A stretch of DNA of 23,075 nt from a virus, in the IMG/VR virus record IMGVR_UViG_3300046816_000057, positions 1-23,075 of that record; one strand, 5' to 3'. The position numbers and the translations under genes are program-made. Positions within the stretch are counted from its first letter, which is position 1, and each line of letters starts with the position of its first letter. This document shows, one piece after another, positions 1 to 22,911 of the stretch. The notes beneath the pieces are model-generated. The model had not been told where the DNA came from, searched no databases, and saw nothing but the letters and a program-made list of their open reading frames with translations.

Positions 1-114
1 CACCGCGAGGATGCTGAGGAACCCGATCATCTGGATTTTCATATGGTTGGCGATCTTCCCGCTCGCGCTTTGGATCGAGCGGAAGGCACCTGGCAAGCAC
101 TGGCACATGATCAT
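1..114 (-). CDS. Possible start of next leftward gene (partial, runs off the left edge)
   Basis: A minus-strand frame is open from an ATG at 114 to the window edge (38 codons), with a second in-frame ATG at 42. Nearly all codons end in G or C, as in the neighbouring genes. From the second ATG the frame begins MKIQMIGFLSILAV, which resembles the start of a signal peptide or membrane segment. It would continue the leftward operon 55 bases after the 532-aa gene. Shine-Dalgarno support is weak: AGG nine bases before the ATG at 114. It competes with a plus-strand frame over the same bases, so only one is likely real. Function cannot be told. Confidence 0.28.
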   Translation of the reverse strand, partial: MIMCQCLPGAFRSIQSASGKIANHMKIQMIGFLSILAV

Positions 115-4248: not shown

Positions 4249-4473
4249 CTAGACCAGCCGTACCTGCACGGCGTTGCCGACCCTATAGAGGCCTCCGATT
4301 GGCACCCCGGCCGCCGCGGCGGCGGCGTCATTGGCCGCGCTCACGAGCGGCCCCGGTGCCGCGATGAAGCGATTGACGTAATCGAGCCACGCCCCGAATT
4401 CGGTGGTCGGGACGCCATTCTGATGCACGACCGACATGCCGGCCGGGCCGAGTGGCTTTGCTCCTGCCGTCAT
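4249..4473 (-). CDS. Small phage structural-module protein (74 aa)
   Basis: Coupled to the hub gene by an ATGA overlap (4470-4473). The first half (residues 15-35) is polar. The second half contains an alanine run and ends in GVPIGGLYRVGNAVQVRLV. This kind of short ending (VP.GG.YR.GN...VR) recurs in small unnamed proteins found beside phage tail genes. No function is known to me; a minor virion or tail-assembly component is plausible from context only. The gene ends directly at the ribosome site of the next gene. Confidence 0.8.
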   Translation of the reverse strand: MTAGAKPLGPAGMSVVHQNGVPTTEFGAWLDYVNRFIAAPGPLVSAANDAAAAAAGVPIGGLYRVGNAVQVRLV

Positions 4474-6209
4474 GGCGGCGGCTCCAGCGGATTGCTCGAC
4501 ATCGTACCGCCGAGGAATCCGTCATAGACAGGATCGCTGCAATCGACCCGCCAGCGCACGCCCTGGATGCCCGACATGCCGCGCGACTTCACCGAGGCGC
4601 GCACGCCCTTGACGTGCTGCTGCGTCCCGATCTGCCGGATTGCGGGATAGTCCCAGGTAATGCCGCCGTCCTTCGAGCACGAGATGGCGCACACAGGCGC
4701 GATCATATTCGGCGGCGCCGTGACATCGGTCACCGTTCCGCCCGAGGTCCATGCATTGGCCCACAACGAGCCCTGCAGATCGATGTGCATCGGATCGACT
4801 ATGGTTGCCGGCCAAGTCCCGTTTGCCTCAGTCGTGCCGCCGACGCCATTGACGTTGACCTGATCGTTGTTCTTCATGCCCGAGCTCGAGATGACTTGCA
4901 GCCGGACCAGATGCGAGGGCGAGGCCGCCGTCCCGACCACATTGGTAACGAAACTGGCGACATTCTCGCCGACGCCGAACACGAAATTGAAATCCGCGCG
5001 CGCGATCCTGGTCTGGCCGGGGAATGCACTTACTGGTCCGCTCTCGATCCGCGAGCGTAGCGGTGCTCCGTCCTCGGTGAAGTTCTGGCTGTCGGCGAAG
5101 ATCAGGTTTCCCGACTGCGTATCGCCCATAAGCCATTTGCCGAAGGCGTTGTGACCGCCGACGCCGCGCCACGGGCCGTAAAGCCCGGTCAAGGCATTGA
5201 GGCTCTGCCGCTCGTTCCACTTCTGCGTCGAGAGGTTGAACTGCCAGGTCCAGGTGGATGACGTGAGCGTCCAAAACTTGCGCCCGGCCGAGATGTGGAC
5301 TCCGGCCTTGATCGTGTCGTTGGTCTTGACCGCAAACTCGATTAACGTATTGAGCGCGGGCGGCGAGATCGCCGGGCCTGGTTGCAGCGTGTTGTATGGC
5401 AGATGATAGACGTTGAAGTCCTGCGCCACCCAGATCAGGTCATCGAAGCCGGTTTCCCATCCCGCGATTGCGCTCTGCTGCACTAAACCATACGGCAGCG
5501 TCATGAATCTTGTATAGGGATAGGCCGGCGTCGGAGCCGCGGTGTCCTGCCAGACCTCGCAGCCGCCCGTGGTGAAAAAGTACATCATGCCGTTGAAGGC
5601 AATGCCGCGGAGCAGGACGACATCCGACTTCGATTGCAGCTTGACGAAGGTGAGCGCGTTCTGCGTCAGCGCATTGATCCCCGAAGCAAAGACGCGGCCG
5701 TCCGCGATCGTGAAGTGAAACACGCCATCCTGGAACGCCACGCTGTTGGGCTGCGGCAGCACGCCGCCGCCGTTGTAGGCGACCGGGGCTGCTCCTCCGG
5801 TCGATGAGAATGCTCCATCTCCGGGGCTGACGATCACGACATCGACGGTGACGGCCAGATCGCGCGCGATGCTGATAGGAGCCGTCCCCGGTATGCTGCC
5901 GAGCGAGGTCACACCGCCGCCGGCGTCGACCGTCGAGAGGTTGTTGTTCCACACCTCATAGGACAGATTGTTGACGATCAGGCCACCGCGATAGCCGGTT
6001 TGGGACGTGACGGCGTGGCGTGTCAGCCCAGGCGATCGTCGCCAGACCTGGGCCGATGGTCCGGTCGGATGCTGCGCCTCGCCTAACGCCTCCGCATAGC
6101 GATTGATGACCCGGCCCGCGCTCTCCTGCGTATTGTCGCCGGGATGCAGATTCGATCCAGGGAACGAGCTCAACGGCCATGGGATCGGGACGTGCGGGGT
6201 ATTCGGCAT
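4470..6209 (-). CDS. P22 gp10-like tail hub / packaged-DNA stabilization protein (579 aa)
   Basis: In P22, gp10 seals the portal-gp4 channel and forms the hub on which tailspikes and needle sit. Here the order adaptor then hub matches P22. The protein is beta-rich with propeller-like repeats. Visible blocks include an N-terminal NRYAEALGE-type region (residues 36-44), a central NGMMYFFTTGGCEVWQ block (206-221) and the C-terminal SKDGGITWDYPAIRQIG...GVRWRVDCSDPV block (512-561), resembling the conserved end of this family. At 579 residues it exceeds P22 gp10 (about 470 aa). The excess is explained largely by an inserted domain at about 418-495 with the NGTW motif of FCCH-type modules. Start ATG shares one base with the previous stop (TGATG). 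Confidence 0.85.
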   Translation of the reverse strand: MPNTPHVPIPWPLSSFPGSNLHPGDNTQESAGRVINRYAEALGEAQHPTGPSAQVWRRSPGLTRHAVTSQTGYRGGLIVNNLSYEVWNNNLSTVDAGGGVTSLGSIPGTAPISIARDLAVTVDVVIVSPGDGAFSSTGGAAPVAYNGGGVLPQPNSVAFQDGVFHFTIADGRVFASGINALTQNALTFVKLQSKSDVVLLRGIAFNGMMYFFTTGGCEVWQDTAAPTPAYPYTRFMTLPYGLVQQSAIAGWETGFDDLIWVAQDFNVYHLPYNTLQPGPAISPPALNTLIEFAVKTNDTIKAGVHISAGRKFWTLTSSTWTWQFNLSTQKWNERQSLNALTGLYGPWRGVGGHNAFGKWLMGDTQSGNLIFADSQNFTEDGAPLRSRIESGPVSAFPGQTRIARADFNFVFGVGENVASFVTNVVGTAASPSHLVRLQVISSSGMKNNDQVNVNGVGGTTEANGTWPATIVDPMHIDLQGSLWANAWTSGGTVTDVTAPPNMIAPVCAISCSKDGGITWDYPAIRQIGTQQHVKGVRASVKSRGMSGIQGVRWRVDCSDPVYDGFLGGTMSSNPLEPPP

Positions 6210-7979: not shown

Positions 7980-8570
7980 TCAGCATCCGGGAGCGGTGGC
8001 GCCGAGTGCGACCGGCCCGCATAGTCCGTCATTGGGAGCGGCGTATTCCAGCACGATGGCGGCGGCTCCAGCCGTTGCGGGCGAGGCGCCCGTGTACGCG
8101 AGATTTGCCCAGATATCGAAGCCGCCATTGCTCCCGGTCTGGGCAATGCTGTTGCCGGTCGATTGCACACCGAGGCCGGTCGCCGTGACGATGGTCAATT
8201 GCGTGACCCCGGCGGCGCCGTGCGTCGAGGTGCCAGCCACGAGCAATGCACCCGTGCCGGAGGCCGTGCTCAATGCAACGGTGTCGGTGGTGGTGGAGTT
8301 GAACGAGGTGAATACCTCAAGGACGCCGCGCAGGATCCATGAATTGTATGGAACTGCGCCGACTTTATAGGAGCAGTTGCCGGCCGTGGCAGGGAGTGGG
8401 CAGGAATTGAAGTTGACCGGGAACCGCATGTAGTGGACTTGCTGGGTCGGGAATATGCGCGGCGAGAACACGGGTTGAGCCGCGACATAGAGCCCAGATC
8501 CGACGACAAGCAGAGCAAGAGCGAGGCCGGCAAGTAATCCGCCGCTCACCCGCGAGATCAAGTTCTTCAT
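7980..8570 (-). CDS. Signal-bearing beta-rich phage protein (196 aa)
   Basis: The N-terminus is a typical Sec signal or anchor: basic MKNLISR, a hydrophobic stretch of about 20 residues, then YVAA/QP as a possible signal peptidase site near residue 31. The rest is Thr/Ser/Ala/Gly-rich and beta-like (TVALSTASGTGALLVAGTS). Four cysteines occur after the signal, two spaced ten residues apart (NSC...GNC) and two near the C-terminus. It directly follows the major capsid gene, where a decoration protein might be expected, yet it appears built for export. Ribosome site is weak. No family recognised; it resembles in style the exported cassette at 11093-16934. Confidence 0.78.
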   Translation of the reverse strand: MKNLISRVSGGLLAGLALALLVVGSGLYVAAQPVFSPRIFPTQQVHYMRFPVNFNSCPLPATAGNCSYKVGAVPYNSWILRGVLEVFTSFNSTTTDTVALSTASGTGALLVAGTSTHGAAGVTQLTIVTATGLGVQSTGNSIAQTGSNGGFDIWANLAYTGASPATAGAAAIVLEYAAPNDGLCGPVALGATAPGC

Positions 8571-8674: not shown

Positions 8675-9823
8675 TTATGTGTCATTCGCCGAGGCGAAAT
8701 ACCCGTAGAAGATGCCCCAGCTCTTGTAGTTTCCGGCCGGGTTCGCCTTGGCTATGGTCTTGAGGCCATAGGCCATTTCGACGCCGACGCCGCGGAAGAA
8801 CTGGTAGTCGTCCTCTTTCAAGAACGTCGGGCGAGGCATTCTGCCCCATGCCCAGGCCATGGCGGATTGTCCGCACATGAACACGGGCGCGATCTGGATG
8901 CCGCCGGCGCCTGCGGTGGTGTAGGTCGTGGGCAGCCGGATATCCAACTCCGGGATCTCGCGGAAGATCATGCCGTTGTAGAGCAGGTCGCCGTCTTGGA
9001 AGAGCGGGTTCTTGTCGAGCCCGTCGCCTTCACGCGGACGCGCCTGGGTATTGGCGTTGATGATCGTGGTGTCGAGCTGGATGTCGCGGAAGCAATTAGA
9101 CCCCACGAAGACCACGAAATATTCCCGGCCGTTTTTCAGCTTGTAGGGTCTGATCCTCGGGTTGGCTTTTTTGGCCAGCCGCTTCATCTTATTTGCCGCG
9201 GCGGCGCTGAAGGTCATGCCGGACGTGACATTAGCGGCCGAGGTTGCCCAGTTGCCGGGCGACAGGTTGCCTTGGCTGCCACCAAACAGGATGCGATCGT
9301 TGTTGTCGGTGGTGAATGTGTTGCGTTGTGCTGGGGTTGCCGCGTCGAAAAACGCGCCGTTGACGCGCTGGCCGCCGGCAGAGCCGAGACCGGCGGGCTG
9401 TGTGTTCTGGATCGGGATTGTGTTGAACGTGTCCACGATCTCGTTGCGCTGGAGCTCCTTGCCCCAGTCTTCGAGCAGCGGACGCGCCTGGCCGAATAGA
9501 TCGATGCTCGACTTCTGCTCTTCTGACTTCGGGATGCGGACGGCGTTTCTCGCCCAGTCGATCCACATCCGATCGCCGAAATTGTCGATATTTTCTTCGT
9601 TGCCGACGAGCGTTCCGGTCGAGATCGCGTTGGCCTTGAGCCTTGCGACCAGCGGAATATTGATCTGCTCGCCGCCTTTTTTCAGGTCATTGATGACGCG
9701 GATGATCGCGGTGAGTTCTGTGCCCACATACGGGCTAAACAGGTTCTGCCGGATGTATTCTCGTGTGACTTCCTTGCGGAAGACGATGAGTTTATTTTGG
9801 GCTTGTACGGTAGTGATGGCCAT
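8675..9823 (-). CDS. Major capsid protein, N4-gp56 family (382 aa)
   Basis: Full-length HK97-fold-type coat protein. Features matching the N4-gp56/DUF4043 family: an N-terminal region ending in INIPLVARLK, then a loop with ISTGTLVGNEE, then WIDWARNAVRI; a central segment YFVVFVGSNCFRDIQLD; and a C-terminal block FFRGVGVEMAYGLKTIAKANPAGNYKSWG. Such proteins form the icosahedral shell. The ribosome site AGGGG lies seven bases before ATG. It directly follows the acidic scaffold gene, as expected. The pairing of an N4-type coat with a P22-type portal, adaptor and hub marks the module as mosaic. Confidence 0.9.
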   Translation of the reverse strand: MAITTVQAQNKLIVFRKEVTREYIRQNLFSPYVGTELTAIIRVINDLKKGGEQINIPLVARLKANAISTGTLVGNEENIDNFGDRMWIDWARNAVRIPKSEEQKSSIDLFGQARPLLEDWGKELQRNEIVDTFNTIPIQNTQPAGLGSAGGQRVNGAFFDAATPAQRNTFTTDNNDRILFGGSQGNLSPGNWATSAANVTSGMTFSAAAANKMKRLAKKANPRIRPYKLKNGREYFVVFVGSNCFRDIQLDTTIINANTQARPREGDGLDKNPLFQDGDLLYNGMIFREIPELDIRLPTTYTTAGAGGIQIAPVFMCGQSAMAWAWGRMPRPTFLKEDDYQFFRGVGVEMAYGLKTIAKANPAGNYKSWGIFYGYFASANDT

Positions 9824-9904: not shown

Positions 9905-10900
9905 CTAGTTGAATGCGTCTCGGAAGATGCTTTCCTCGGAACCGTCGAAGCCGCGCGGGTCGAGGTTACGGCTATTGCCGCCCTCGCGTCCGACGCCGCC
10001 TGCTGAGTTCAATGAGGGAAGCCGGGGACTAGTCCCCCTGCCGCGTTGTGCGGGCGCGCGGTCCTGTTGACCGCGTTGCTGGCTCTCTGATGGACGCCGC
10101 TGCGCTTGTTGCGGGGCAATGCCTTCAAGGTCTGCCGGGTCTACGCCGAGCAGGCGTGCTGCCTGCTCGCGGTTGCGTTCCGCCTGCTCCTGGCGGAAGT
10201 TCTCCAGGTCGAGGGTATCCTCGGCCCATTGCATCAGCGCGTAGCCGGGATCGGGTGCGTTCACGATGCCGCGTACCGTAGCCGCGGCATTCGGGTCCGT
10301 CCTGGCGCGAAACGAAAGCTCGTTTAGCTGGCTTGCTGCCAGCGTGAACTCGTCCCTTCGGTTCTCACGCGAATAGGCCGCCTCGGTTGCCTTGAAGTTG
10401 TTCTCCAGGATGGCCGTTCTGGTGGCCTGCTGATATTCGGCCCGCATCTGCGCCGCCATGCCTTCGCGGAAGCCGGCCGGGTCGAGGACGGGGTCGGGCA
10501 GTTCCTGCGGGGGCGGCGCCGGCTGTTCTTGCCGGGGCGCTTCCATGCGTGCCAGCCGGGCTTCGAGCTCGGCAATGCGTTGGGCGGAAGGGTCGACTGG
10601 CGGCAGGCGGTAACTCGGGCGTTCCTGCGGAGGAGGCTCACGGGCGCCTTCCTGCGGTGCCTCGTCACCGGTCTCCTCCTGGCCTTCCTCGTCACCCTCC
10701 TCCTCGCCGGCGTCCTCCTCGTCGTCGCCTACCGGATCGTCCATCTGTTCGAGCGAGGTATCGCCGTCATTCTCGTCCTCGTCGTCGCCCATCGCCTCGG
10801 TGAAGATCTCGCTCTCGGTATTGGCCATGGCGGCGACCAAGAGGCTTTCGTCCTCGTCGGATGTATCGGGCGCTGCTGCCCGCTGTGTTCTCGGTGCCAT
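9905..10900 (-). CDS. Scaffolding protein (331 aa)
   Basis: Strongly acidic N-terminal third: residues about 13-80 are dominated by Asp and Glu (DDEDENDGDTSLEQ, DDEEDAGEEEGDEEG). A proline/glutamine-rich hinge (85-140) contains a short helical AQRIAELEARLARME segment. A helical middle (145-250) and a basic Gln/Arg/Gly-rich C-terminal tail (255-331) follow. This charge layout and the place directly before the capsid gene match phage scaffolds, which guide coat assembly and leave the maturing head. The basic tail would be the coat-binding end. GAGG lies about ten bases before the ATG. Confidence 0.85.
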   Translation of the reverse strand: MAPRTQRAAAPDTSDEDESLLVAAMANTESEIFTEAMGDDEDENDGDTSLEQMDDPVGDDEEDAGEEEGDEEGQEETGDEAPQEGAREPPPQERPSYRLPPVDPSAQRIAELEARLARMEAPRQEQPAPPPQELPDPVLDPAGFREGMAAQMRAEYQQATRTAILENNFKATEAAYSRENRRDEFTLAASQLNELSFRARTDPNAAATVRGIVNAPDPGYALMQWAEDTLDLENFRQEQAERNREQAARLLGVDPADLEGIAPQQAQRRPSESQQRGQQDRAPAQRGRGTSPRLPSLNSAGGVGREGGNSRNLDPRGFDGSEESIFRDAFN

Positions 10901-10904
10901 TGCT

Positions 10905-11096
10905 TTAATTCCTCAATAGTTCGTCCTGGCGGCGTTCACGCCATGTTTCCAGGTCGGTCTTGACGGCGTGGTAGCCGCCGTCCTCGTCGCGCATTTCCTT
11001 GACGATCTTGAAGCCGTATTCGTAGGCGAGCTCGCGCCACCGTTTCGGCCACTTGTCGAGCGCGGCCATGTGGGCGAATTGCGCGTTGTAGGTCAC
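10905..11096 (-). CDS. Small hypothetical protein, GTG start (63 aa)
   Basis: The frame is open further upstream, but that part lies out of frame over the end of the spike gene. A GTG at 11096 overlaps the spike stop (GTGA), giving a coupled 63-residue protein beginning MTYNAQFAHMAALDKWPKRW. It is helical and charged, with aromatic-rich WPKRWRELAYEYGFKIVKEM and a basic/acidic tail. It ends four bases before the scaffold start. No family recognised. A small assembly factor is possible, but only from its position. Confidence 0.72.
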   Translation of the reverse strand: MTYNAQFAHMAALDKWPKRWRELAYEYGFKIVKEMRDEDGGYHAVKTDLETWRERRQDELLRN

Positions 11097-14000
11097 GGCG
11101 TCATCCCGTAGCCCTGTCTGATGTAGTGGTTTAGCGCCGCCGCCGTTAAATTTTGGGTCCAGTTCCATTTCGCGTTGGCGAGCGCGGCGGTCATGTAGCC
11201 GTCGATCGATGCCGTCAGACCGAGCGAAGCTGCATAGGTTTGTACAGTCCGATATGGAGCGGAGAAAACCGTCGTTGGCGCGCATGTATAGGAATACATC
11301 GTCGCGCTAGGCGCGGTCTGGTTTGGCGAAACGGTCCAGCTTGTGCCAGAGCCGCCGGTGATTGTGGTGCTCGGGCTAACGCCGGGACCAGCGAGACTTT
11401 GGCCGATAGCGATCGTGCCCTGAACCAGGGCACTCGTCGTTAGGGTATTCGTTCCTGTTATTACTCCAGTGAACTGCGCGGTTGGGCAGATCGTGTTGGG
11501 AGTCCAGATGTTGGCCGCGCCGGTACCGGCTCCACCCGGTGAAGGTGAATCATGCGTTCCGCCATCATCGCCAACTGAGGGTGGTCCCACCCCTATCCAA
11601 TTAAAAACAGTATTGCCGGTGAAGGTCAGTGCATGAGTACCGGCCGAAAGTATTCTGGAGACAGTCTCTGTCCACCCGCTCAGATGGGCCACCGAGTTGA
11701 CCGTGATCCGCAGCCCGGTCCCGCCACCAAATGATGCCGTCAAAACATCACCGGCCACATAGTTCTTGCCGGTCTGTATGATCGTGTATCCGGTAAAGGA
11801 ACCCAGTACGGTCACGGGACCGGGATCGGTCATGGTCCCCAACGACCATATCGCCGTGCCGTTGGGTTGATTGATACCGGTTACAGTCCAGGTGCCATTA
11901 TAAGCAGAAGGAGTGACGCCACTGACCAGGATTTTGCTGCCTACGTTGAGGGAGTGAGCACCGCTCCCCCCGAAATCAACGAATGCGTTATTGGCGTTGG
12001 CTTGGGCAAAATACAAGCCACTGCCACTATCCATAAATCGTGTAATGCTGCTCCAGTTGTCAACCACAAACGTGGCACGAGCTTCTGACCCCGCCATACT
12101 GCCACTGAAATTGGTCAGTGCGATCCCTCCAGCAAAGCCAGGTAATGCTGCGGCGGGATCATCGGGACATATGCCGAAAGGGGTTCCGTAAGTTCCTACC
12201 GTAGCTCCGCTGTTTGCGGCGGTAATCGTCGTGCCAGACGTTTGCAGGCTGGGGTAATTGGCGACCGGCGTCAGCACGTCTCCGATCGCAAAGAACTCAT
12301 TACCATTCGGTTCTTGCAGTGTCGGGTCGCCGGTTATTGATCCGCCTGCACCAACCACCAGATTGAATGTACCCGCATTGGTTCCATGTCCCCCGGTAAA
12401 ATCGGTACCACCTATGCATCCATAATTGCCTGGTGCTCCGCCAGTCCCGGCATTGGATGTCGTCAGGGCATTGATGCCACCATCATAATTATCGGTCGCG
12501 GCAAACAAGGCACTCCCGTCGTTCACATGGGCAATGAGGTTGTTGGAAGCCGTCACATTGTTGGAGTTGGCAAAATTCAATCCCGTAGGATGAGGCCCGC
12601 CTCCAAAAGGAGTAATTGGAAGCACAGTTACGTTGTTATGGACAACCGTAGAACTCGTCAATGTCGGCTCACCCTCCTTGTGTCCGACATCAAGACCCAA
12701 ACCGTTGTAGGTGAAATTGTTGTCGATGTCGCCGCCACTGCGAAACTGGAAACTCTCTGATCCGCTTCTAGTGCTCGTGTTTCCTCGCCTGTTGCCGAAT
12801 GCGGTATTACCCTGGAAGTAGGCATTGCGTGATCTGGAGTCGCCAAAGGCAAACATTCCTGTGGGGTCTGGATAGCCGCACAGATCGATCACGTTTTCCT
12901 CAAACGAATACCCCGCGAGCGCGCCGCCGGAGGTGCCTACGTTGTGTATCGAAGCTCCGATTGGATGGCCTGCACCTACTGCATAACAATGATCAATCTG
13001 ATTGCGCCGAATAACGATGTCAAAGTTTCCACTTTGATCGCCTACAGAAACACCGTCCATCCCCCAACTGGAATGGACATCTTCGACCAGCAATCCGGTC
13101 ATTCCGCCCGCAACGTCAACGGCAGATACATCTGTCAAATTGACCTGCCCGACATATGCCGGATCACTCGGGTTTTTCTGCGGTTGCTGGAAGTCAATCC
13201 CCATGATGGCGATAAAACTAGATCCGCTCTGTAGCCGTATCCCGGCGCGGCCAGCAAACAGATGCACGCTGCCTGCTGGTTTGCCGCCCGCAAAAGTGGC
13301 GCTGCCGGTTGGCACGAGAACGATTGGACGCGCGCGTGTGCCAGATCCGACATTGGGCGTCGTCACCGTGACGGCCTCGTCATAGGCCGAGATGACCATC
13401 GGTTCCTGTTCTGAAAACCCGGCCTTGGTGAAATTGTTAGAAGAACCGCCGATAAACTCGGTCTCAAATGCCTGCCCGGTCCAGGTATCGCCCATCCGCA
13501 GCAATACCCAGTCTGGTTTTCCACTGCGCAACGCAAAGCTGCTGGCAATGCTCCCAGTCGTGCGCCAGGTGCCGCGAGTTCCAAGGCCGGTGCCGTCGCC
13601 ATTGTTCAAAAGTGGCAAAGCGGTATTGTCGGGATCGAATGCTCCCGGACCACCACCGCCAACGGCCTTGACCAAGGTCTTGACCGGGCCATGAATGCCG
13701 AGGGTGGCAGAGGTGTATGCCATCGTCATGGGGCCGGAGCAGGAGCCGACGCAGGTCAGGGTTCCGCTGGCGTTGGGAGTTCCAGTGCGGTTTTTCATCT
13801 GCGCAAGGGTGACGGCTGAACCGCTAATTGCGAATGAGTTGGTTACAGCGACCGTGAATTGCGTTGTGTTCGGAGCTTGATAGACATCGTTCGCAAACAG
13901 ATTCTGCTGCGCGCTGAGTTCAAATTGGGCAGTGTTGCCGTCATCGACAAAGGTCGGGGTCGAGCCGTCGCGGCTGTCGCTGCCCATGGAATCGGAGACG

Positions 14001-14206
14001 TAGATGATGTTGGTGAAGGCGCCGCTGGCTAGGGTGCCGTTGCTCGGTCCGATGGTGGTCCAGCCCGAGGCGGTGGTGGAGCCGTAGGTGCCGAGCACGA
14101 GGCCAGGGGCTACCGCACCGCCGCCGGTGGGTGCGCCGTGCCGCGGCCAAGCTCCTACGGAGACACAAAGCCCAAACAGGACCAGGAATGCCGCTATGAT
14201 CCGCAT
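11093..14206 (-). CDS. Secreted-type beta-helix tailspike-like protein (1037 aa)
   Basis: The chosen start ATG at 14206 overlaps the previous stop (TAATG) and places a signal peptide first: MRIIAAFLVLFGLCVSVGA, with cleavage likely near residue 19. A longer frame from 14296 adds 30 non-homologous-looking residues. Residues 65-90 carry the IYVSDSMGSDSRDGS motif typical at the start of beta-helix proteins, but about 90 residues intervene before its usual partner GPVKTLVKAV. A right-handed beta-helix spans roughly 320-570 (repeating asparagine-rich turns such as IVIRRNQIDHC, FEENVIDLC). An FCCH-like module (SGVTPSAYNGTWTV, ~762-775) and a TGVITGTNTLTTSALVQGTIAIGQSL repeat domain (~913-938) follow. 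Likely binds or degrades surface polysaccharide. The mature part has eight cysteines. Confidence 0.82.
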   Translation of the reverse strand: MRIIAAFLVLFGLCVSVGAWPRHGAPTGGGAVAPGLVLGTYGSTTASGWTTIGPSNGTLASGAFTNIIYVSDSMGSDSRDGSTPTFVDDGNTAQFELSAQQNLFANDVYQAPNTTQFTVAVTNSFAISGSAVTLAQMKNRTGTPNASGTLTCVGSCSGPMTMAYTSATLGIHGPVKTLVKAVGGGGPGAFDPDNTALPLLNNGDGTGLGTRGTWRTTGSIASSFALRSGKPDWVLLRMGDTWTGQAFETEFIGGSSNNFTKAGFSEQEPMVISAYDEAVTVTTPNVGSGTRARPIVLVPTGSATFAGGKPAGSVHLFAGRAGIRLQSGSSFIAIMGIDFQQPQKNPSDPAYVGQVNLTDVSAVDVAGGMTGLLVEDVHSSWGMDGVSVGDQSGNFDIVIRRNQIDHCYAVGAGHPIGASIHNVGTSGGALAGYSFEENVIDLCGYPDPTGMFAFGDSRSRNAYFQGNTAFGNRRGNTSTRSGSESFQFRSGGDIDNNFTYNGLGLDVGHKEGEPTLTSSTVVHNNVTVLPITPFGGGPHPTGLNFANSNNVTASNNLIAHVNDGSALFAATDNYDGGINALTTSNAGTGGAPGNYGCIGGTDFTGGHGTNAGTFNLVVGAGGSITGDPTLQEPNGNEFFAIGDVLTPVANYPSLQTSGTTITAANSGATVGTYGTPFGICPDDPAAALPGFAGGIALTNFSGSMAGSEARATFVVDNWSSITRFMDSGSGLYFAQANANNAFVDFGGSGAHSLNVGSKILVSGVTPSAYNGTWTVTGINQPNGTAIWSLGTMTDPGPVTVLGSFTGYTIIQTGKNYVAGDVLTASFGGGTGLRITVNSVAHLSGWTETVSRILSAGTHALTFTGNTVFNWIGVGPPSVGDDGGTHDSPSPGGAGTGAANIWTPNTICPTAQFTGVITGTNTLTTSALVQGTIAIGQSLAGPGVSPSTTITGGSGTSWTVSPNQTAPSATMYSYTCAPTTVFSAPYRTVQTYAASLGLTASIDGYMTAALANAKWNWTQNLTAAALNHYIRQGYGMTP

Positions 14207-15168
14207 TACCAAACACCATAGGCTGCATGGCGGTTGGCGTTCATAGCCGTCAGGTTGGCGCCGGAGAATGCCACGCCCCATATCCCGAGATCGCACATAT
14301 ACCCTTGCGAAGCACTCGTGCCCCCGTCAAACAGCACGTTCACGCCGCCACCGACGGACATCGATCCACCGCCAGGGTCGGCGGCGCCGAGCGTTTGCGT
14401 GCTGTCAACCTGGAAGTCCGAGTTTGGCGTGCGGTCAACGGCCTGGATGGAATGGAACGCGCTGTCGCTCGCCGTCGCGGTCACCAGCGTTCCGCCGTAG
14501 GTGGTCACCGTATTCGCGCTGCTGCTTTGCAGGAGCGGGTACAGTGTGTTGGACTGGAGGTAGACGCCCTGTGTGGTGAAATGAGAGTTCCTCTCCGTGA
14601 CAGCCAGTACAGTCGTCGGCTGGGATTGGTTGAAACCGGTGGCGATGGAATAGCCGTTCCCCGAATTTCCAGGCTGGAATGCGCAAGGTATTGTGCTGAT
14701 GATTGCGTTAAATGCTACAATCGCGCGATTGGTTGCGGAAGTCTCCACCACATTGCAAGGCGCTCCACCACAGCTATTGCTCCCGCTTCGGTCATAGAAA
14801 GTTCGTATCGTGCAGGTCACCATGGTGCAATCGGCTCCGCCTACTAATGCCGGGGTCACGTAGCCGCTAGCGCCGATTGCCCAATTAACACACGTCGTGT
14901 TGGTCGGCTCGCAGACTTCCATGGCGTTGCCGGTGTCGGTCGAGGTGTAGCCGCTCGACCCCCACCAGGCCTTGGCGCCCGAGACGACATTGCCGGGGCC
15001 GACGTAGCCGCCACCGCCGCCTGCTACCGCGCACGGCTGGAACAGCAACGTCCGCTGCCCCACCTGCCCGCAACCGAGCACGCCAAGCTGCGCGCGCGAG
15101 GCCGGCTGCTGCGCAAGCCAGACGATGCCGATCAGCAGAATTAGCGCCGTGAGAAAACGCGCCTGCAT
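14206..15168 (-). CDS. Secreted-type lectin/LamG-like protein (320 aa)
   Basis: Begins one base after the previous stop. The N-terminus is a signal peptide: MQARF, then a hydrophobic core, then PASRA/Q with likely cleavage near residue 26. The remainder resembles concanavalin-like modules of phage fibres and of arabinofuranosidase-B-type proteins. It has AKAWWGSSGYTST near residue 65, the IRTFYDRSGS motif (compare YDQSG) near 120, and the terminal strand CDLGIWGVAFSGANLTAMNANRHAAYG common to such folds. Ten cysteines follow the signal, many in close pairs (CEPTNTTC, CTMVTC, CGGAPC). A carbohydrate-binding, receptor or adhesion role is likely; catalysis is not evident. Confidence 0.8.
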   Translation of the reverse strand: MQARFLTALILLIGIVWLAQQPASRAQLGVLGCGQVGQRTLLFQPCAVAGGGGGYVGPGNVVSGAKAWWGSSGYTSTDTGNAMEVCEPTNTTCVNWAIGASGYVTPALVGGADCTMVTCTIRTFYDRSGSNSCGGAPCNVVETSATNRAIVAFNAIISTIPCAFQPGNSGNGYSIATGFNQSQPTTVLAVTERNSHFTTQGVYLQSNTLYPLLQSSSANTVTTYGGTLVTATASDSAFHSIQAVDRTPNSDFQVDSTQTLGAADPGGGSMSVGGGVNVLFDGGTSASQGYMCDLGIWGVAFSGANLTAMNANRHAAYGVW

Positions 15169-15169
15169 G

Positions 15170-16351
15170 TCAGTTCGCCTGAGAGTGCAGGAACTTGCCA
15201 GTCGAGGCTGCCGTCAGCACCGGGCAGTCGGTCGAGGAGATGGCCACCACGATGCCGGTCGAGAAGTGCTCCCATGGACCAGGATTGTAGTTGATGCTTG
15301 CGCCCCAATCGGTGACGCCCTTCTGGAGCTCGAAGCATCCTTGCAAGTTTCCTGAGGCGGTCCCGATCGTGAGCGTGGCATTGGCCGGAAGCGAAGCCGC
15401 GTTGATGATGAAGACCCAGCCGGCCGCCGAGCTGGTCACGTAGGCGTTCTGCAAATTGCCGGCCGATGCCTTGGCCACCACGCTGGAGGCTGTCGTTCCG
15501 GCGACCGCCGTGGTGCCGGAAGTACCGGCGGAGCTATCGGGAAAAATAGTGATCCCATCGGTTGTTCCCGGCGTGGTGTGATCGATGCCGATCCGCCCGA
15601 TGGTGGTGACGCAAGGACTCGCCGCGCAGGCCGGAATGGGTGCGATCATGTCGGCGTGCAACTGATTGCCGGTCGTGTCCACGTCGATGACCTGCGCACG
15701 CTTGGTGGTCATGCGGAAGGTGCCCTGCTGACCGGTGGTCAGTGTGGCGGCATCGTTGAACACGCCGCCGCCAGGGGTGAAGTTGGAAGAGCCGGCCGTG
15801 AATGCCGCGGTGTCCATAACGGAGAGGCCGCCGCCGCCCCCGCCGCCTACCATTACGTTGACGCGGAGGTTGCCGTTCGCGTCAAGCTGGAACGGCGCCA
15901 TGTTGGTGGTGGTCAGGGTGCCGGGGGCGGTCAAGAACTGCCCGAGCGCGACCTGCCCATTGGCGACAAGCGCACTGTTGTAGGTCGTGGTGCCGATGCC
16001 CCAGTTCGCCGCAGTGGTCGGGCTCACCGGTTGCGTGACGGCCGAGCCGTCCACCTTCCAGGCGGTCGTGTTAGCGGTGTTGCCGGGTTGGACCGTCCAG
16101 GTGCCTGTCTGCGTTGCATTGACCGGCTGTGGCGTAGTGCCGGTGGGATCGACCCGCAGCGGGTTGCCGGCGGTCGCCTTCTCGACGTTGGTCGAGTCGA
16201 TCAGCACGAATGCCGGGCAGACCTTGGTGGCCGAGCAGACGAAGGCAAACACCGTGGTGGCGCCGCCTGCCGTGGCCAGATAATCCGCCAGCGCCACCGG
16301 AGGGGCCAGCACGATCGCCGCATAGACTATGCGCAGAAGCCATTTTCTCAT
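15170..16351 (-). CDS. Secreted-type phage fibre-like protein (393 aa)
   Basis: The ATG at 16351 overlaps the previous stop (ATGA) and gives a clean signal peptide (MRKWLLR, hydrophobic core, PPVALA/D). An in-frame ATG 33 bases upstream would add 11 residues and is less likely. The mature protein is Thr/Ala/Gly-rich with short repeats (PQPVNATQTGTWTVQPG) and a seven-glycine run around residue 170. The C-terminal 110 residues (KASAGNLQNAYVTSSAAGWVFIINAAS ... STGIVVAISSTDCPVL) resemble a domain often seen at the ends of phage structural proteins. Six cysteines occur in the mature part, four as close pairs. Probably a surface or fibre-associated protein. Confidence 0.78.
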   Translation of the reverse strand: MRKWLLRIVYAAIVLAPPVALADYLATAGGATTVFAFVCSATKVCPAFVLIDSTNVEKATAGNPLRVDPTGTTPQPVNATQTGTWTVQPGNTANTTAWKVDGSAVTQPVSPTTAANWGIGTTTYNSALVANGQVALGQFLTAPGTLTTTNMAPFQLDANGNLRVNVMVGGGGGGGLSVMDTAAFTAGSSNFTPGGGVFNDAATLTTGQQGTFRMTTKRAQVIDVDTTGNQLHADMIAPIPACAASPCVTTIGRIGIDHTTPGTTDGITIFPDSSAGTSGTTAVAGTTASSVVAKASAGNLQNAYVTSSAAGWVFIINAASLPANATLTIGTASGNLQGCFELQKGVTDWGASINYNPGPWEHFSTGIVVAISSTDCPVLTAASTGKFLHSQAN

Positions 16352-16533
16352 CGCGCTAACCCCAACATTAAGGGAAGGATGCACAGATTTGTCCCGCTGA
16401 CATCGATCGTGCCAGTGCCGCAGGGGGCGACCACGACGGTGCTAAAGCCACCTGAGCCATATTCCGTGGTCAGCAGTTGCGCCGGCGCCGACGATGCCAG
16501 GGCGATGAGAAGCGCCGTTATGAGCATTCTCAT
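16348..16533 (-). CDS. Small exported protein (61 aa)
   Basis: Coupled on both sides by ATGA overlaps. A signal peptide occupies about one third of the protein: MRMLITALLIALASSAPA/Q, cleavage near residue 18. The mature part of about 43 residues holds two cysteines thirteen residues apart (APCGTG...NLCILP) in a Gly/Thr/Val-rich sequence. The precise overlaps and the signal peptide support a real gene, though it is short. Function unknown. It could be a periplasmic partner or stabiliser of the neighbouring exported proteins; this is inference from arrangement only. Confidence 0.68.
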   Translation of the reverse strand: MRMLITALLIALASSAPAQLLTTEYGSGGFSTVVVAPCGTGTIDVSGTNLCILPLMLGLAR

Positions 16534-16934
16534 TGTTTGATGCCGAAATTGAGCGCCAGGCCGGTGGCTGCCACCGTGGTGTCGCTGTCGGCCTGCAGTC
16601 CGGTGAGGCAGAAGCCCAGCCCGTTGGCGAATGCCAAGCCATCGGAAATCGGCATGACGGCGCCGCCGCCGGCATTCGAGGCCGCGAACGGGATCGGCAC
16701 CTTCCACTTCACGACCGAGGTGCCGCAGGTCGGCGCCACGGCAAGATCGTAAAGCTTCAGCCAATAGATCGAGGTCGTGGTATTGAACAGGCCGAGCACG
16801 CGAAGCTGCACGGCGCCGGAAACGACCAGGGTCGAGTTGGTGGAGGCGAGGCTGTCGTATTTGAGCGGCGCCGACTGCGCAAACGCGGCCGAGCACCACG
16901 CTGTTGCCAGCGCGGCGAGAAGCAATCTGAGCAT
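16530..16934 (-). CDS. Exported small beta-rich phage protein (134 aa)
   Basis: ATG 16934 has GAGG six bases upstream and follows the portal stop by ten bases. A longer open frame upstream lies over the portal gene and is not used. The signal peptide ends at AAFA/Q (residue 19). The mature part matches in style a widespread small phage virion family: GLFNTTTSIYWLKLYDLAVAP, then TCGTS, IPFAASNAGGGAVMP, then LAFANGLGFCLTG and ADSDTTV. Family members I know of usually lack a signal peptide, so the secreted form is notable. Two cysteines lie in the mature part. Likely a beta-sandwich fibre or decoration protein. Confidence 0.76.
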   Translation of the reverse strand: MLRLLLAALATAWCSAAFAQSAPLKYDSLASTNSTLVVSGAVQLRVLGLFNTTTSIYWLKLYDLAVAPTCGTSVVKWKVPIPFAASNAGGGAVMPISDGLAFANGLGFCLTGLQADSDTTVAATGLALNFGIKQ

Positions 16935-16944
16935 GGGGAACCTC

Positions 16945-19056
16945 TTAAGCTGGCCGCCGCATCGGGGCTGGTGCGAAACGCCGAGGCGCTGCTGGCCGGG
17001 CGAACGGCTGGACGCGCATGGGCTGTGGTTGCTGCACGGGCGGCGGCAGTCCAGATGGCGGCTGCTGGCCACCCTGCCCAGGCTGGTCCGGTGTATTGGC
17101 ATCCAGCACGCCCGCCTGCGTGATGCCCATGGCTTGATGCACCAGCGCCGTGACGTTGGTGTGCGCCTCGGACGCCGCCTTGGCGGCCTGCGCATAGCGG
17201 TGAATGGTGCCGGCCTTCTTCTCGTCCACCTCGGCGCCGAGCCGTTGGTTGGTCAATTGCTTGGCCTGCTGCGCCATCGGGTCTTGCTGGCTCATCATCT
17301 GCACGAGCTGCTTCTTGATGCTGTCCGCGATCGGCATCATCTGGATCAGGACTTGCGGCGGGATCGTCCCCGGCGGCTGTTGCGCCAGCACCTCGTAGGC
17401 GTCCTGCATCAGGTTGGCGTTATCCGGCCCTTCGTCCAGCACGATCTCGACCTCGATGTCGCCGATCGCATTGATGAAGCCGGGACGGCCGAATTGGTCT
17501 TTGCCGAAACCGTTGATCTGAATCAGCTTTTGGGTGTCGTCGGTGCCGACCCGGATGAACCGCTCCTGGTTCCAGGTGCGTTTGACGATATTCCACACGG
17601 TACGATAAACACGCAGTTTCCACGCTCGATACGCCAATATAAACGAACCGAGTTCAGCGATGCCGGCCTTCTGAAGGTAATTAATCGCCACCCCTGAATG
17701 AAACGTTGAGTCATCCGCTCCGATGGCGTCGGGTCGTATGTTGGCAAACCCATCGATTTCGCTCGTCGCTGTCTGCATGAGTTGCAGTTGCGCCGCCAGG
17801 TCGGCCTGCCGATCGTCCGGCATCGGCTTCTCGAAGCCCTTGTTGTATTCTACCCATCCGTCTGGGCGCGAGCTTTCGCGGCGAGCTGTTTCCACATCGT
17901 CAACCGAGCCTTTCTGCGCGAAAGTGCGCGTAACGTTCGAGATAAAGAGCGCCTTGGACCGTCGTTGGTTGACTTCGTCTTGCGGGCCTTTGAGGTTGCG
18001 GACGAAACCATATCTGTCTCCATCGTGGTCGACCGCGGCAGAGAACATGACATACCGGTTCATCGGGCGGTTGCGCTCGTCGAGGAACGGCGACACGCCC
18101 TGATCAAGCAAAATGAAGCTGCAATAGAACGCCCAGTACCATTTGCCTTTGTGCTTGTACCAGTGCTCGATCAGTCGAAGTCTTTGCTCGTTGACGTAGA
18201 CCCACTTGAACTCGCGATCCGAATGTGTCGTGAGATCGAAGCCCGTGTCGACCATGAGGGTTCTAAGCTCTTCCTCCTTGTCGGGGAAAAGCTCGATCGC
18301 CGCCTCCACGTCCAGCCATTTAGCAATGCCCATATAACGGGCGTCACTAAAATCAGGCTTGTAAGAACGAGGATCGTAGAAAAAATCATCGCCGAAAATA
18401 AAATCACCGCCAATATCCGGGTCGCCATGGTCGCCTTCGATCAACTTGAGCTCGATCCCGCCGATGCCGTCGATGGCGGCCTGCTTGGTGCATTCGAAGT
18501 CGAGGTATTTGAAATCCATCCCGTCGAGCGCGGCGCGGATGCATTGCGTGGCGAGCTCGGCGCCGCCGGCATTCTTAGGCGATCGGGGAAAAGCCTTCGG
18601 GTCTTGGCGAAGTCGCTGCACAAGCGCTGTGATGCCGTCAACCTTTCGGTTGATCCGGTTGAATGTGATGATCGGCTGCTTGCGCTGCCGGAGGATGCGG
18701 ATTTCCTCGGCCGTCCAGTGCGCGCCGTGATAGTAGTGGCGCGAGACTTTCTGCTCCTCATATTCCAGCACCTTCGTTGCCAGATAGTCGGTATATTGTT
18801 GCCGTAGTCGCGTGACCGGGAAATAGCCGTCCTCGTCGCCCGAGAAGTCGTATTCGTCGGGCGCCTCGGTGCCCCAGTTGCCCACTGTCCCGGTCTGCGA
18901 CTTGAAGCCGGAGTTATTGCGCGCGGCGTTGCGCCCCATGGTATCGCCGCCGAATTGCCGCCCGCCGAGCACGCCGACGCCCGAGAGAATATTGCGCCTC
19001 GGGAGCTGATCGCCCGGATTGCTCTGCGATCGTGCCGGAAGGCCGCCGAATGCCAT
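16945..19056 (-). CDS. Portal protein, P22 gp1 type (703 aa)
   Basis: The portal is the dodecameric ring at one capsid vertex through which DNA is packaged and ejected; it binds terminase and later the gp4-like adaptor. Length is close to P22 gp1 (725 aa). Visible blocks include YDFSGDEDGYF and a helical region (LRQQYTDYLATKVLEYEEQK), RKQPIITFNRINRKVDGI near residue 130, then GHGDPDIGG-like loop and FFYDPRSYKPDFSDARYMGIAKWLD (about 225-250), and RYVMFSAAVDHDGDRYGFVRNLKGPQDEVNQRRSKAL (about 330-370). A C-terminal proline/glutamine/arginine-rich tail follows. AGAGG lies six bases before the ATG, nine bases after the terminase stop. The segment around 17600-17750 is less GC-rich than flanking DNA. 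Confidence 0.93.
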   Translation of the reverse strand: MAFGGLPARSQSNPGDQLPRRNILSGVGVLGGRQFGGDTMGRNAARNNSGFKSQTGTVGNWGTEAPDEYDFSGDEDGYFPVTRLRQQYTDYLATKVLEYEEQKVSRHYYHGAHWTAEEIRILRQRKQPIITFNRINRKVDGITALVQRLRQDPKAFPRSPKNAGGAELATQCIRAALDGMDFKYLDFECTKQAAIDGIGGIELKLIEGDHGDPDIGGDFIFGDDFFYDPRSYKPDFSDARYMGIAKWLDVEAAIELFPDKEEELRTLMVDTGFDLTTHSDREFKWVYVNEQRLRLIEHWYKHKGKWYWAFYCSFILLDQGVSPFLDERNRPMNRYVMFSAAVDHDGDRYGFVRNLKGPQDEVNQRRSKALFISNVTRTFAQKGSVDDVETARRESSRPDGWVEYNKGFEKPMPDDRQADLAAQLQLMQTATSEIDGFANIRPDAIGADDSTFHSGVAINYLQKAGIAELGSFILAYRAWKLRVYRTVWNIVKRTWNQERFIRVGTDDTQKLIQINGFGKDQFGRPGFINAIGDIEVEIVLDEGPDNANLMQDAYEVLAQQPPGTIPPQVLIQMMPIADSIKKQLVQMMSQQDPMAQQAKQLTNQRLGAEVDEKKAGTIHRYAQAAKAASEAHTNVTALVHQAMGITQAGVLDANTPDQPGQGGQQPPSGLPPPVQQPQPMRVQPFARPAAPRRFAPAPMRRPA

Positions 19057-21965: not shown

Positions 21966-22174
21966 GTCCGGCTCCTTGCCTTGTCCAGCGCCCGATCCGA
22001 GATCAGGCCGCGCTTCTGTAGTTTGTCGGCACGCTTGTTTGCGGTCGCGATCGCAATGCCCTCATCTACGCCTGAGCGCACCATGGCGCTCGCCTGGCGC
22101 GCCGCGGACGAGGCGACAGCGCCCTTGAGCTTCTTGTTGTGCTTCGACGCGAAGCTCTTGCCCGTCCACGGCAT
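21962..22174 (-). CDS. Small conserved phage/bacterial protein, MPWTxKSF family (70 aa)
   Basis: Starts MPWTGKSFASKHNKKLKG and contains GVDEGIAIATANKRADK, the signature of a short basic protein family common in phage genomes and in proteobacteria. The function is not established. The first ATG shares a base with the preceding stop (TGATG). It is basic, helical and has no cysteine or membrane segment. Confidence 0.82.
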   Translation of the reverse strand: MPWTGKSFASKHNKKLKGAVASSAARQASAMVRSGVDEGIAIATANKRADKLQKRGLISDRALDKARSRT

Positions 22175-22911
22175 CAGCGCTTGCCCTTTTCACGTGAAAC
22201 AAACCGCTCACACTGTCGGTTATTCCGCACCAACCCGCAGACCAGCTCGCACGTCGACAAGTCCTTGCCCGGATGCTCGTACATGGCGCAGTCGGCACAC
22301 TTGCGCCCCGCCATGCGATACATCACGGTCGGATCGCCCTTTGCCAGCTTGAAGGCGTCCACGACGCCCTTGGCCTTGAATATCCGCAGCAATTCCTTGT
22401 CGCGCGCGCTCGGCTCATCGAGGTAGGGGCCGCACCACAGATCCTTCGGCGGATTGGCCGGATCGCGCTTCTCGCACGCGGCCAGCGCGCCCTCTAGCGC
22501 ATCCTCGTAGCGATCGGCCTTACCCTTGCCGAGGATCGCCTCGGCCGCCTCGTACTCCTTGGCGGTCGCCATGCCGTGCGCCGCCTGGTAGACATCAACG
22601 GGATTGTCGCCATCGTCGACCGACTTCTCGGTGTGCTCGTGCTCGATGAAGCAGTTGACGATCTGTTTCCAGCCCATGCCGCGGACGCAGACCTTGCCGG
22701 CTCGCACATCGTCGTACAGCCGCCGATCGATGTAGACCATGCGGCTGTCGACCGACACGCCGCCCGCATACGGGATGTCGTGGCTGGTATCGAGCTTCAC
22801 CGGCTTGGCGTAGTGCTTCGAGGTGTCGGCCTCGCCGAGTATGAGATACAGCTCTTCGGTTGTTTTCGCCTCGCGCTTCAAATGCCCTACTGACATCGTG
22901 AAGCCATCCAT
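22174..22911 (-). CDS. Putative metal-binding phage protein with Cys-rich C-terminus (245 aa)
   Basis: First gene of the visible operon. Middle block HDIPYAGGVSVDSRMVYIDRRLY (about 44-66) is followed by FIEHEHTEKSV (around 88-98) and YQAAHGMATAKEYEAAE (~108-124). The HEHTE plus later His and Glu look like metal ligands, as in small zinc-dependent enzymes, but HExxH is not present. The C-terminus (208-240) holds five cysteines, C-x2-C-x12-C-x3-C-x8-C (CADCAMY...CELVC...QCERF), resembling a zinc ribbon or high-potential iron-sulfur type cluster site. A second ATG at 22896 is preceded by GGATG and may be the true start (240 aa). Function unknown. Confidence 0.8.
   Translation of the reverse strand: MDGFTMSVGHLKREAKTTEELYLILGEADTSKHYAKPVKLDTSHDIPYAGGVSVDSRMVYIDRRLYDDVRAGKVCVRGMGWKQIVNCFIEHEHTEKSVDDGDNPVDVYQAAHGMATAKEYEAAEAILGKGKADRYEDALEGALAACEKRDPANPPKDLWCGPYLDEPSARDKELLRIFKAKGVVDAFKLAKGDPTVMYRMAGRKCADCAMYEHPGKDLSTCELVCGLVRNNRQCERFVSREKGKR

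Follow-up and report, generated by a model that had tools for sequence, protein, structure and literature searches.

We analyzed a 23,075-bp stretch of viral DNA (hereafter the window) that makes up a whole IMG/VR virus record, IMGVR_UViG_3300046816_000057, with a GC content of about 62%. On its minus strand, genes for the small and large terminase and the portal are followed by five open reading frames, here called the cassette (genes A to E), and by the scaffold, the major capsid protein (MCP), g196 and several small genes; past the small genes lie a gp4-like gene, a gp10-like head-closure protein and ejection-type genes (Table 1). The P22-type portal, Phage_capsid_3 MCP and gp10-like head closure, found in this order, place the region among the head modules of Pam1/P22-like podoviruses, and the MCP matched the solved capsid of cyanophage Pam1 (PDB 7eel, E 1.7e-57). 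As the related portals in named genomes come mostly from Hyphomicrobiales (Bradyrhizobium, Rhizobium, Mesorhizobium, Devosia and Methylobacterium), the host is likely a member of that order. Upstream of the terminase, positions 22174-22911 encode a cysteine-rich protein of 245 amino acids, with nine cysteines and without a signal peptide.

Table 1. Head, cassette and tail-fibre features of the window
Feature	Position	Strand	Properties
Portal, P22-like	16945-19056	-	PF16510, E 8.7e-90; no signal peptide
Gene A	16530-16934	-	134 aa; signal peptide 16878-16934 (MLRLLLAALATAWCSAAFA/Q); mature all-beta domain, conserved C70/C109
Gene B	16348-16533	-	61 aa; signal peptide (SAPA/Q); 2 Cys
Gene C	15170-16351	-	393 aa; signal peptide (VALA/D); 6 Cys; hypervariable
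Gene D	14206-15168	-	320 aa; Sec-type leader (PASRA/Q); 10 Cys; lectin-like/ArabFuran-catal-like
Gene E	11093-14206	-	1037 aa; signal peptide (VGA/W); 8 Cys; relatives retain WPRHG at the mature N terminus
Scaffold	9905-10900	-	By position and composition, homologues in relatives; no signal peptide, no Cys
Major capsid protein (MCP)	8675-9823	-	PF13252 (Phage_capsid_3), E 2e-37; no signal peptide
g196	7980-8570	-	N-terminal export-like segment about 8478-8570; 4 Cys (C57, C66, C184, C196)
P22 gp10-like head-closure protein	4470-6209	-	phrog_578, E 4.6e-44; no signal peptide
Tail-fibre gene start	1-42	-	First 14 codons, signal peptide MKIQMIGFLSILAV..., cut by window end

The initial annotation had described five consecutive genes with signal-peptide-like N termini between portal and scaffold. 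All five are present on the minus strand and tightly coupled: A and B as well as B and C overlap by 4 bases, C and D are separated by 1 base, and D and E overlap by 1 base. We scored the N termini with a home-made score combining a matrix of known Gram-negative signal peptides, the hydrophobic core and the charge of the n-region. The scores were 20.2 for A, 15.0 for B, 13.7 for C, 12.5 for E, 7.2 for g196 and -0.7 for D, and the remaining 20 complete genes of the window received no signal-peptide call from it. The portal, scaffold, MCP, head-closure and ejection-type proteins all lacked one. The description was thus upheld by score for A, B, C and E, and for D through its obvious hydrophobic core, the -3/-1 site PASRA/Q and several homologues with ordinary signals; the low score of D is due to a long c-region. 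The list of five exported genes was real but incomplete, as signal-peptide-like N termini were also found on g196, behind the MCP, and on a tail-fibre gene cut at base 1 of the window. The n-region charge, the core and the -3/-1 site are kept as properties, while the sequence itself is not conserved, as in Sec-type signals. Judged by these features, it is very likely that the proteins are exported from the cytoplasm by the Sec pathway, with a Tat-like route in some relatives.

Relatives of gene A with diverged leaders were found at more than 40 loci, and one leader changed by an insertion still ends in AFA/Q. An AF2 model of A (pLDDT 82) gave an all-beta mature part with the look of a jelly-roll; a Foldseek search against the PDB returned no match below 0.001, leaving only this generic resemblance. 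Gene B is 149 amino acids long in relatives L036 and L021, and the C-terminal part of the window copy seems to have been lost beside the start of C. The C-terminal part of C is distantly A-like, and a profile iteration begun with C drew in the A family. No Pfam match was found for E, nor any PDB match for its profile; family searches with A to E against Pfam, PHROGs, NCBIfam and PADLOC yielded no usable match, and C and E had no tblastn match in isolate phages.

The family profile of gene D (A7) matched arabinofuranosidase B in the PDB (E 2e-5), and Pfam ArabFuran-catal was detected in a homologue (E 8e-7). As the alignment is partial and does not cover a full catalytic domain, we rejected an assignment to GH54 arabinofuranosidases; D appears to be related to the ConA-like part of arabinofuranosidase B, and the relationship is ConA-like only. 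At the corresponding locus, a prophage of Bradyrhizobium sp. YR681 (contig NZ_AKIY01000059, L053/L081) carries a signal-peptide-bearing GDSL esterase; this prophage scores strongly for signal peptides in two genes and more weakly in a third, and its cement is signal-peptide-like as well. These two cassette types are predicted to be glycan-facing, and the lectin-like character proposed in the initial annotation stood up wherever a test was possible. Cultured phages of Rhizobium and Mesorhizobium have SGNH-hydrolase homologues, which we checked as carriers of signal peptides; they had none.

Related head operons fell into two kinds. With the same scoring, 34 of the 157 genes in head operons of the cassette kind had signal peptides, against 0 of 181 in operons of the minimal kind (Fisher 6e-13). 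In the portal tree, 18 of the 19 loci with signal-peptide cassettes belonged to a single clade (23 rows, support 100/100), and the lone locus outside it was on a contig of an Armatimonadetes MAG; the cassettes are nearly restricted to one clade. Relatives of A or D with signal peptides also occurred on contigs, up to 98 kb long, from diverse uncultured viruses. The surroundings of the portal gene vary among the relatives: in L017 and L018 an additional stretch of about 1.3 kb separates the portal from gene A, and in L021-L025 the portal C terminus varies such that residues 1-604 alone align. Short pieces resembling the MCP N terminus (48-73% identity) were seen near the portal gene at L028 9699-9971, L035 1594-1848 and G003 C1 16271-16387 and 13921-14004, the one in L035 overlapping a small open reading frame with a Tat-like leader.

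The cassette differs strongly among close relatives. In phages with portal and MCP 99-100% identical, C keeps 10-23% and E 54-63% of residues and D is missing, while the cement protein exists as two alleles, 54% apart. Diversification affects the exposed layer and spares portal and MCP. Within the proteins, the leaders change and the mature starts stay. The gene E leaders MRIIAAFLVLFGLCVSVGA, MLMRIAALLLSMLLAAPAYA and MRTKSFLLALVVASMSSFHAAA differ, and the WPRHGA after all three is invariant; C keeps its mature start ADY while the leaders diverge; and in the tail fibre, two different leaders precede QGSLPIALQQVSDQNG, with the mature start QGSLPIALQQ kept.

Exported proteins are known to favour an even number of cysteines (PMC7678975). 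Across 45 loci, the mature part had an even count in 85 of 93 signal-peptide proteins, compared with 154 of 349 proteins without a signal (p about 1e-17); collapsed to families, the counts were about 36 of 43 and 88 of 218 (p 8e-9). The signal-peptide proteins thus bear the signature of an oxidising compartment. In the A-domain family, 37 members had both a signal peptide and the cysteine pair, 11 had neither and five were exceptions (Fisher 2e-7), with the counts retaining L142 (pair but no signal peptide, at a contig edge), L162 (cut) and L094 (a false signal-peptide call inside the domain). Loci L157, L159, L160 and L164 each contain members with and without a signal peptide, every one with the matching cysteine state, and six further homologues from isolates had neither feature.

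Some cassette members have Tat-like leaders, assigned by an RR motif recognised by eye (L131 8694-11711, L154 7260-8162, L138 9419-10339, L028 12082-12333 and L035 1603-1848), and the same kind of protein is therefore apparently exported by two routes. In the D family, the Sec-type members contain 6-12 cysteines, whereas two Tat-like members have 0 and 1 and one member without a signal peptide has 0. The low counts with Tat-like leaders fit a Tat cargo already folded in the cytoplasm, a pattern seen in the D family only, as the other Tat-like candidates of the 45-locus survey do have cysteines. The changing leaders before kept mature starts, the contrast between operon kinds, the cysteine parity and the A-family cysteine pair agree in indicating that the signals are real. 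The signal features, the cysteine parity and the Tat-like variants lend good support to the initial proposal that the proteins leave the cytoplasm.

We built a cement profile (A3) from the cement proteins of Pam5 and minimal prophages. The profile recovered the Pam1 cement 7eel_H (E 1.6e-18) and the GP4 cement 8h89_J, and it matched g196 directly (E 2.2e-7) as well as its homologues in L043, G006 and G009 (E 1e-6 to 9e-10). A comparison of the g196 family (A4) with A3 using hhalign gave a Prob of 94 (E 8.8e-8). The AF2 model of g196 was weak (pLDDT 60), but its Foldseek list included the KHP30, KHP40 and GP4 cements, interspersed with viral coat jelly-rolls. The gene is located directly behind the MCP, syntenic with cement. 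By profile homology and synteny, g196 is predicted to be the capsid cement (decoration) protein. A PHROG match to an Rz-like spanin (E 1.5e-4) was set aside, because it falls within the mature domain and because synteny and the cement profile give the better assignment; the alternative candidate g128 showed no similarity to the cement profile. Neither g196 nor another cement homologue had a tblastn match in isolate phages.

In G001, G002, G006 and G009 (38-54 kb), there is no credible cement candidate other than a g196 homologue with an export-like N terminus; those of G001 and G002 were found through the family's own profile and marginally through the cement profile. The four cysteines are kept in most family members and are absent from the cements of the minimal clade, and the L051 cement has a hydrophobic N terminus and no cysteines. 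The cement signal and the cassette signals are not strictly tied, since L039 and L056 have a signal peptide on the cement and none called between portal and MCP.

Both G002 and G001 contain the whole tail-fibre gene, G001 with a different leader. The G001 protein matched the tail fibre gp16 of Pam5, which has no signal peptide, over the fibre body (39% identity, 221 residues, 39-259, E 8e-15), and the fibre matched a PHROG tail protein (E 3e-27). The tail spike of G001 is split into an adaptor of 198 amino acids without a signal peptide and a signal-peptide-bearing body of 393 amino acids with 12 cysteines. The spike gene of G009 is split in the same way; the adaptor and body coordinates are 35079-35675 and 35689-36870 in G001 and 47342-47872 and 47898-49454 in G009. 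In G002, the spike is one fused protein of 622 amino acids without a signal peptide, so export does not extend to all outer proteins. The original description took the cassette to be an addition within the head operon. This did not hold, as the export signal is also present on the capsid cement and a tail fibre; the signals instead suggest a class of outward-facing virion proteins, wider than the cassette alone.

Our preferred model is a short-tailed, Pam1/P22-like phage whose outward-facing proteins, the g196 cement, the tail fibre and A to E, carry Sec signals, Tat-like ones in relatives. These proteins would be made together with the head genes, exported, cleaved and disulfide-bonded in the periplasm. 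When lysis opens the inner membrane, the DNA-filled cytoplasmic particles would meet the periplasmic pool of cement and fibres and be decorated then. We give an even chance to the proposition that these are exported outer parts of the virion, disulfide-bonded in the periplasm, that join DNA-filled particles at or after lysis. The homologies of cement and fibre, together with the finding of no other cement gene, lead us to infer the joining step, which we would believe or doubt in equal measure; cleavage in vivo, incorporation into the virion and the timing at lysis are likewise deduced steps. Among the roles listed in the initial annotation, joining virions after lysis fits best, and coating of the cell or a block to superinfection, possible as well, make up the main rival.

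According to that rival, the proteins are exported and never enter the virion, forming instead a late envelope or extracellular layer for which the cement homologue and the fibre were repurposed. Such a layer could mask or destroy receptors, block superinfection or loosen surface polysaccharide before release. The export evidence, including the cysteine parity and the A-family cysteine pair, fits equally here, and the glycan-active look of D (ArabFuran/ConA-like) and of the YR681 GDSL esterase is in keeping with it. Hypervariability of the cassette across phages with near-identical heads is what surface interactions predict, and the fused G002 spike without a signal peptide also speaks for this reading. 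It has to explain why the sole credible cement candidate carries an export signal and occupies the cement locus behind the MCP, and also why a Pam5-type tail fibre is exported. No defence or exclusion family was matched: PADLOC models gave no hit for A, C, D, E, g196 or the fibre. We regard an envelope layer as a serious possibility that we doubt somewhat more than we believe.

The signals could also be uncleaved anchors that hold inner-membrane proteins with periplasmic domains and mark a membrane-bound site of assembly or release. The long N-terminal segment of the cement, modelled by AF2 as a helix at 5-24, and the atypical c-region of D would suit such anchors, but the leaders of A, B, C, E and the fibre are canonical and short, with small -3/-1 residues kept through sequence change, and homologues have Tat-like leaders; we consider this unlikely. 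That Ala/Leu-rich N termini of a GC-rich phage (about 62%) merely mimic signal peptides under a home-made scorer is highly improbable, given 0 of 181 calls in the minimal relatives and parity and cysteine-pair tests that examine the mature part and not the leader.

The decoration model departs from known systems in several ways. Textbook tailed phages complete their virions in the cytoplasm, and we know of no tailed phage with exported cement or fibres; no precedent was found in the open-access literature, to which the search extended. Lone exported proteins with signal peptides occur in tailed phages, among them lambda Lom (PMC12309495), P1 Sim and the Cor-type exclusion proteins. They are lone accessory genes, whereas here homologues of cement and fibre are accompanied by a multigene cassette. 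The capsid proteins of filamentous phages have signal peptides (PMC4823517), and the likeness lies in virion proteins passing through the Sec pathway, as predicted here from sequence. Filamentous virions, however, are assembled at the membrane and extruded, while a head that packages DNA and has a Pam1-type MCP should form in the cytoplasm.

Among closer relatives, Pam1 and Pam5 share the order portal, scaffold, MCP and cement and the homology of MCP, cement and fibre, but in Pam5 no annotated feature separates portal and scaffold, and neither its cement nor its fibre has a signal peptide. The minimal Hyphomicrobiales prophages of Rhizobium, Mesorhizobium, Devosia and Methylobacterium (L080, L082-L088 and others) resemble the window in their P22-like portal (35-50%), Phage_capsid_3 MCP and syntenic cement; they differ in having no signal-peptide genes in the head operon and a short cement without cysteine pairs. 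The Caulobacter phages S2B, KSC and Cr30 and other isolates have the same A-domain family, but without signal peptide and cysteine pair.

If the envelope-layer reading is true, the genes would form a multigene exported system of phage origin, undescribed in the open-access literature searched, and would be a variant of phage-encoded exported proteins and not a new assembly route. If the decoration model is true, a final assembly step would take place outside the cytoplasm, something unknown in Caudoviricetes, and the outer shell would be made in another compartment. We advance only tentatively, at a little under an even chance, the broader idea that a lineage of tailed phages splits its assembly, with heads and tail core built in the cytoplasm and exported cement, fibres and appendages snapping on at lysis. 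Such phages would gain disulfide-hardened surfaces and possibly keep sticky fibres from the cytoplasm until release, and a signal peptide combined with an even number of cysteines would be the sequence signature by which to seek the arrangement elsewhere.
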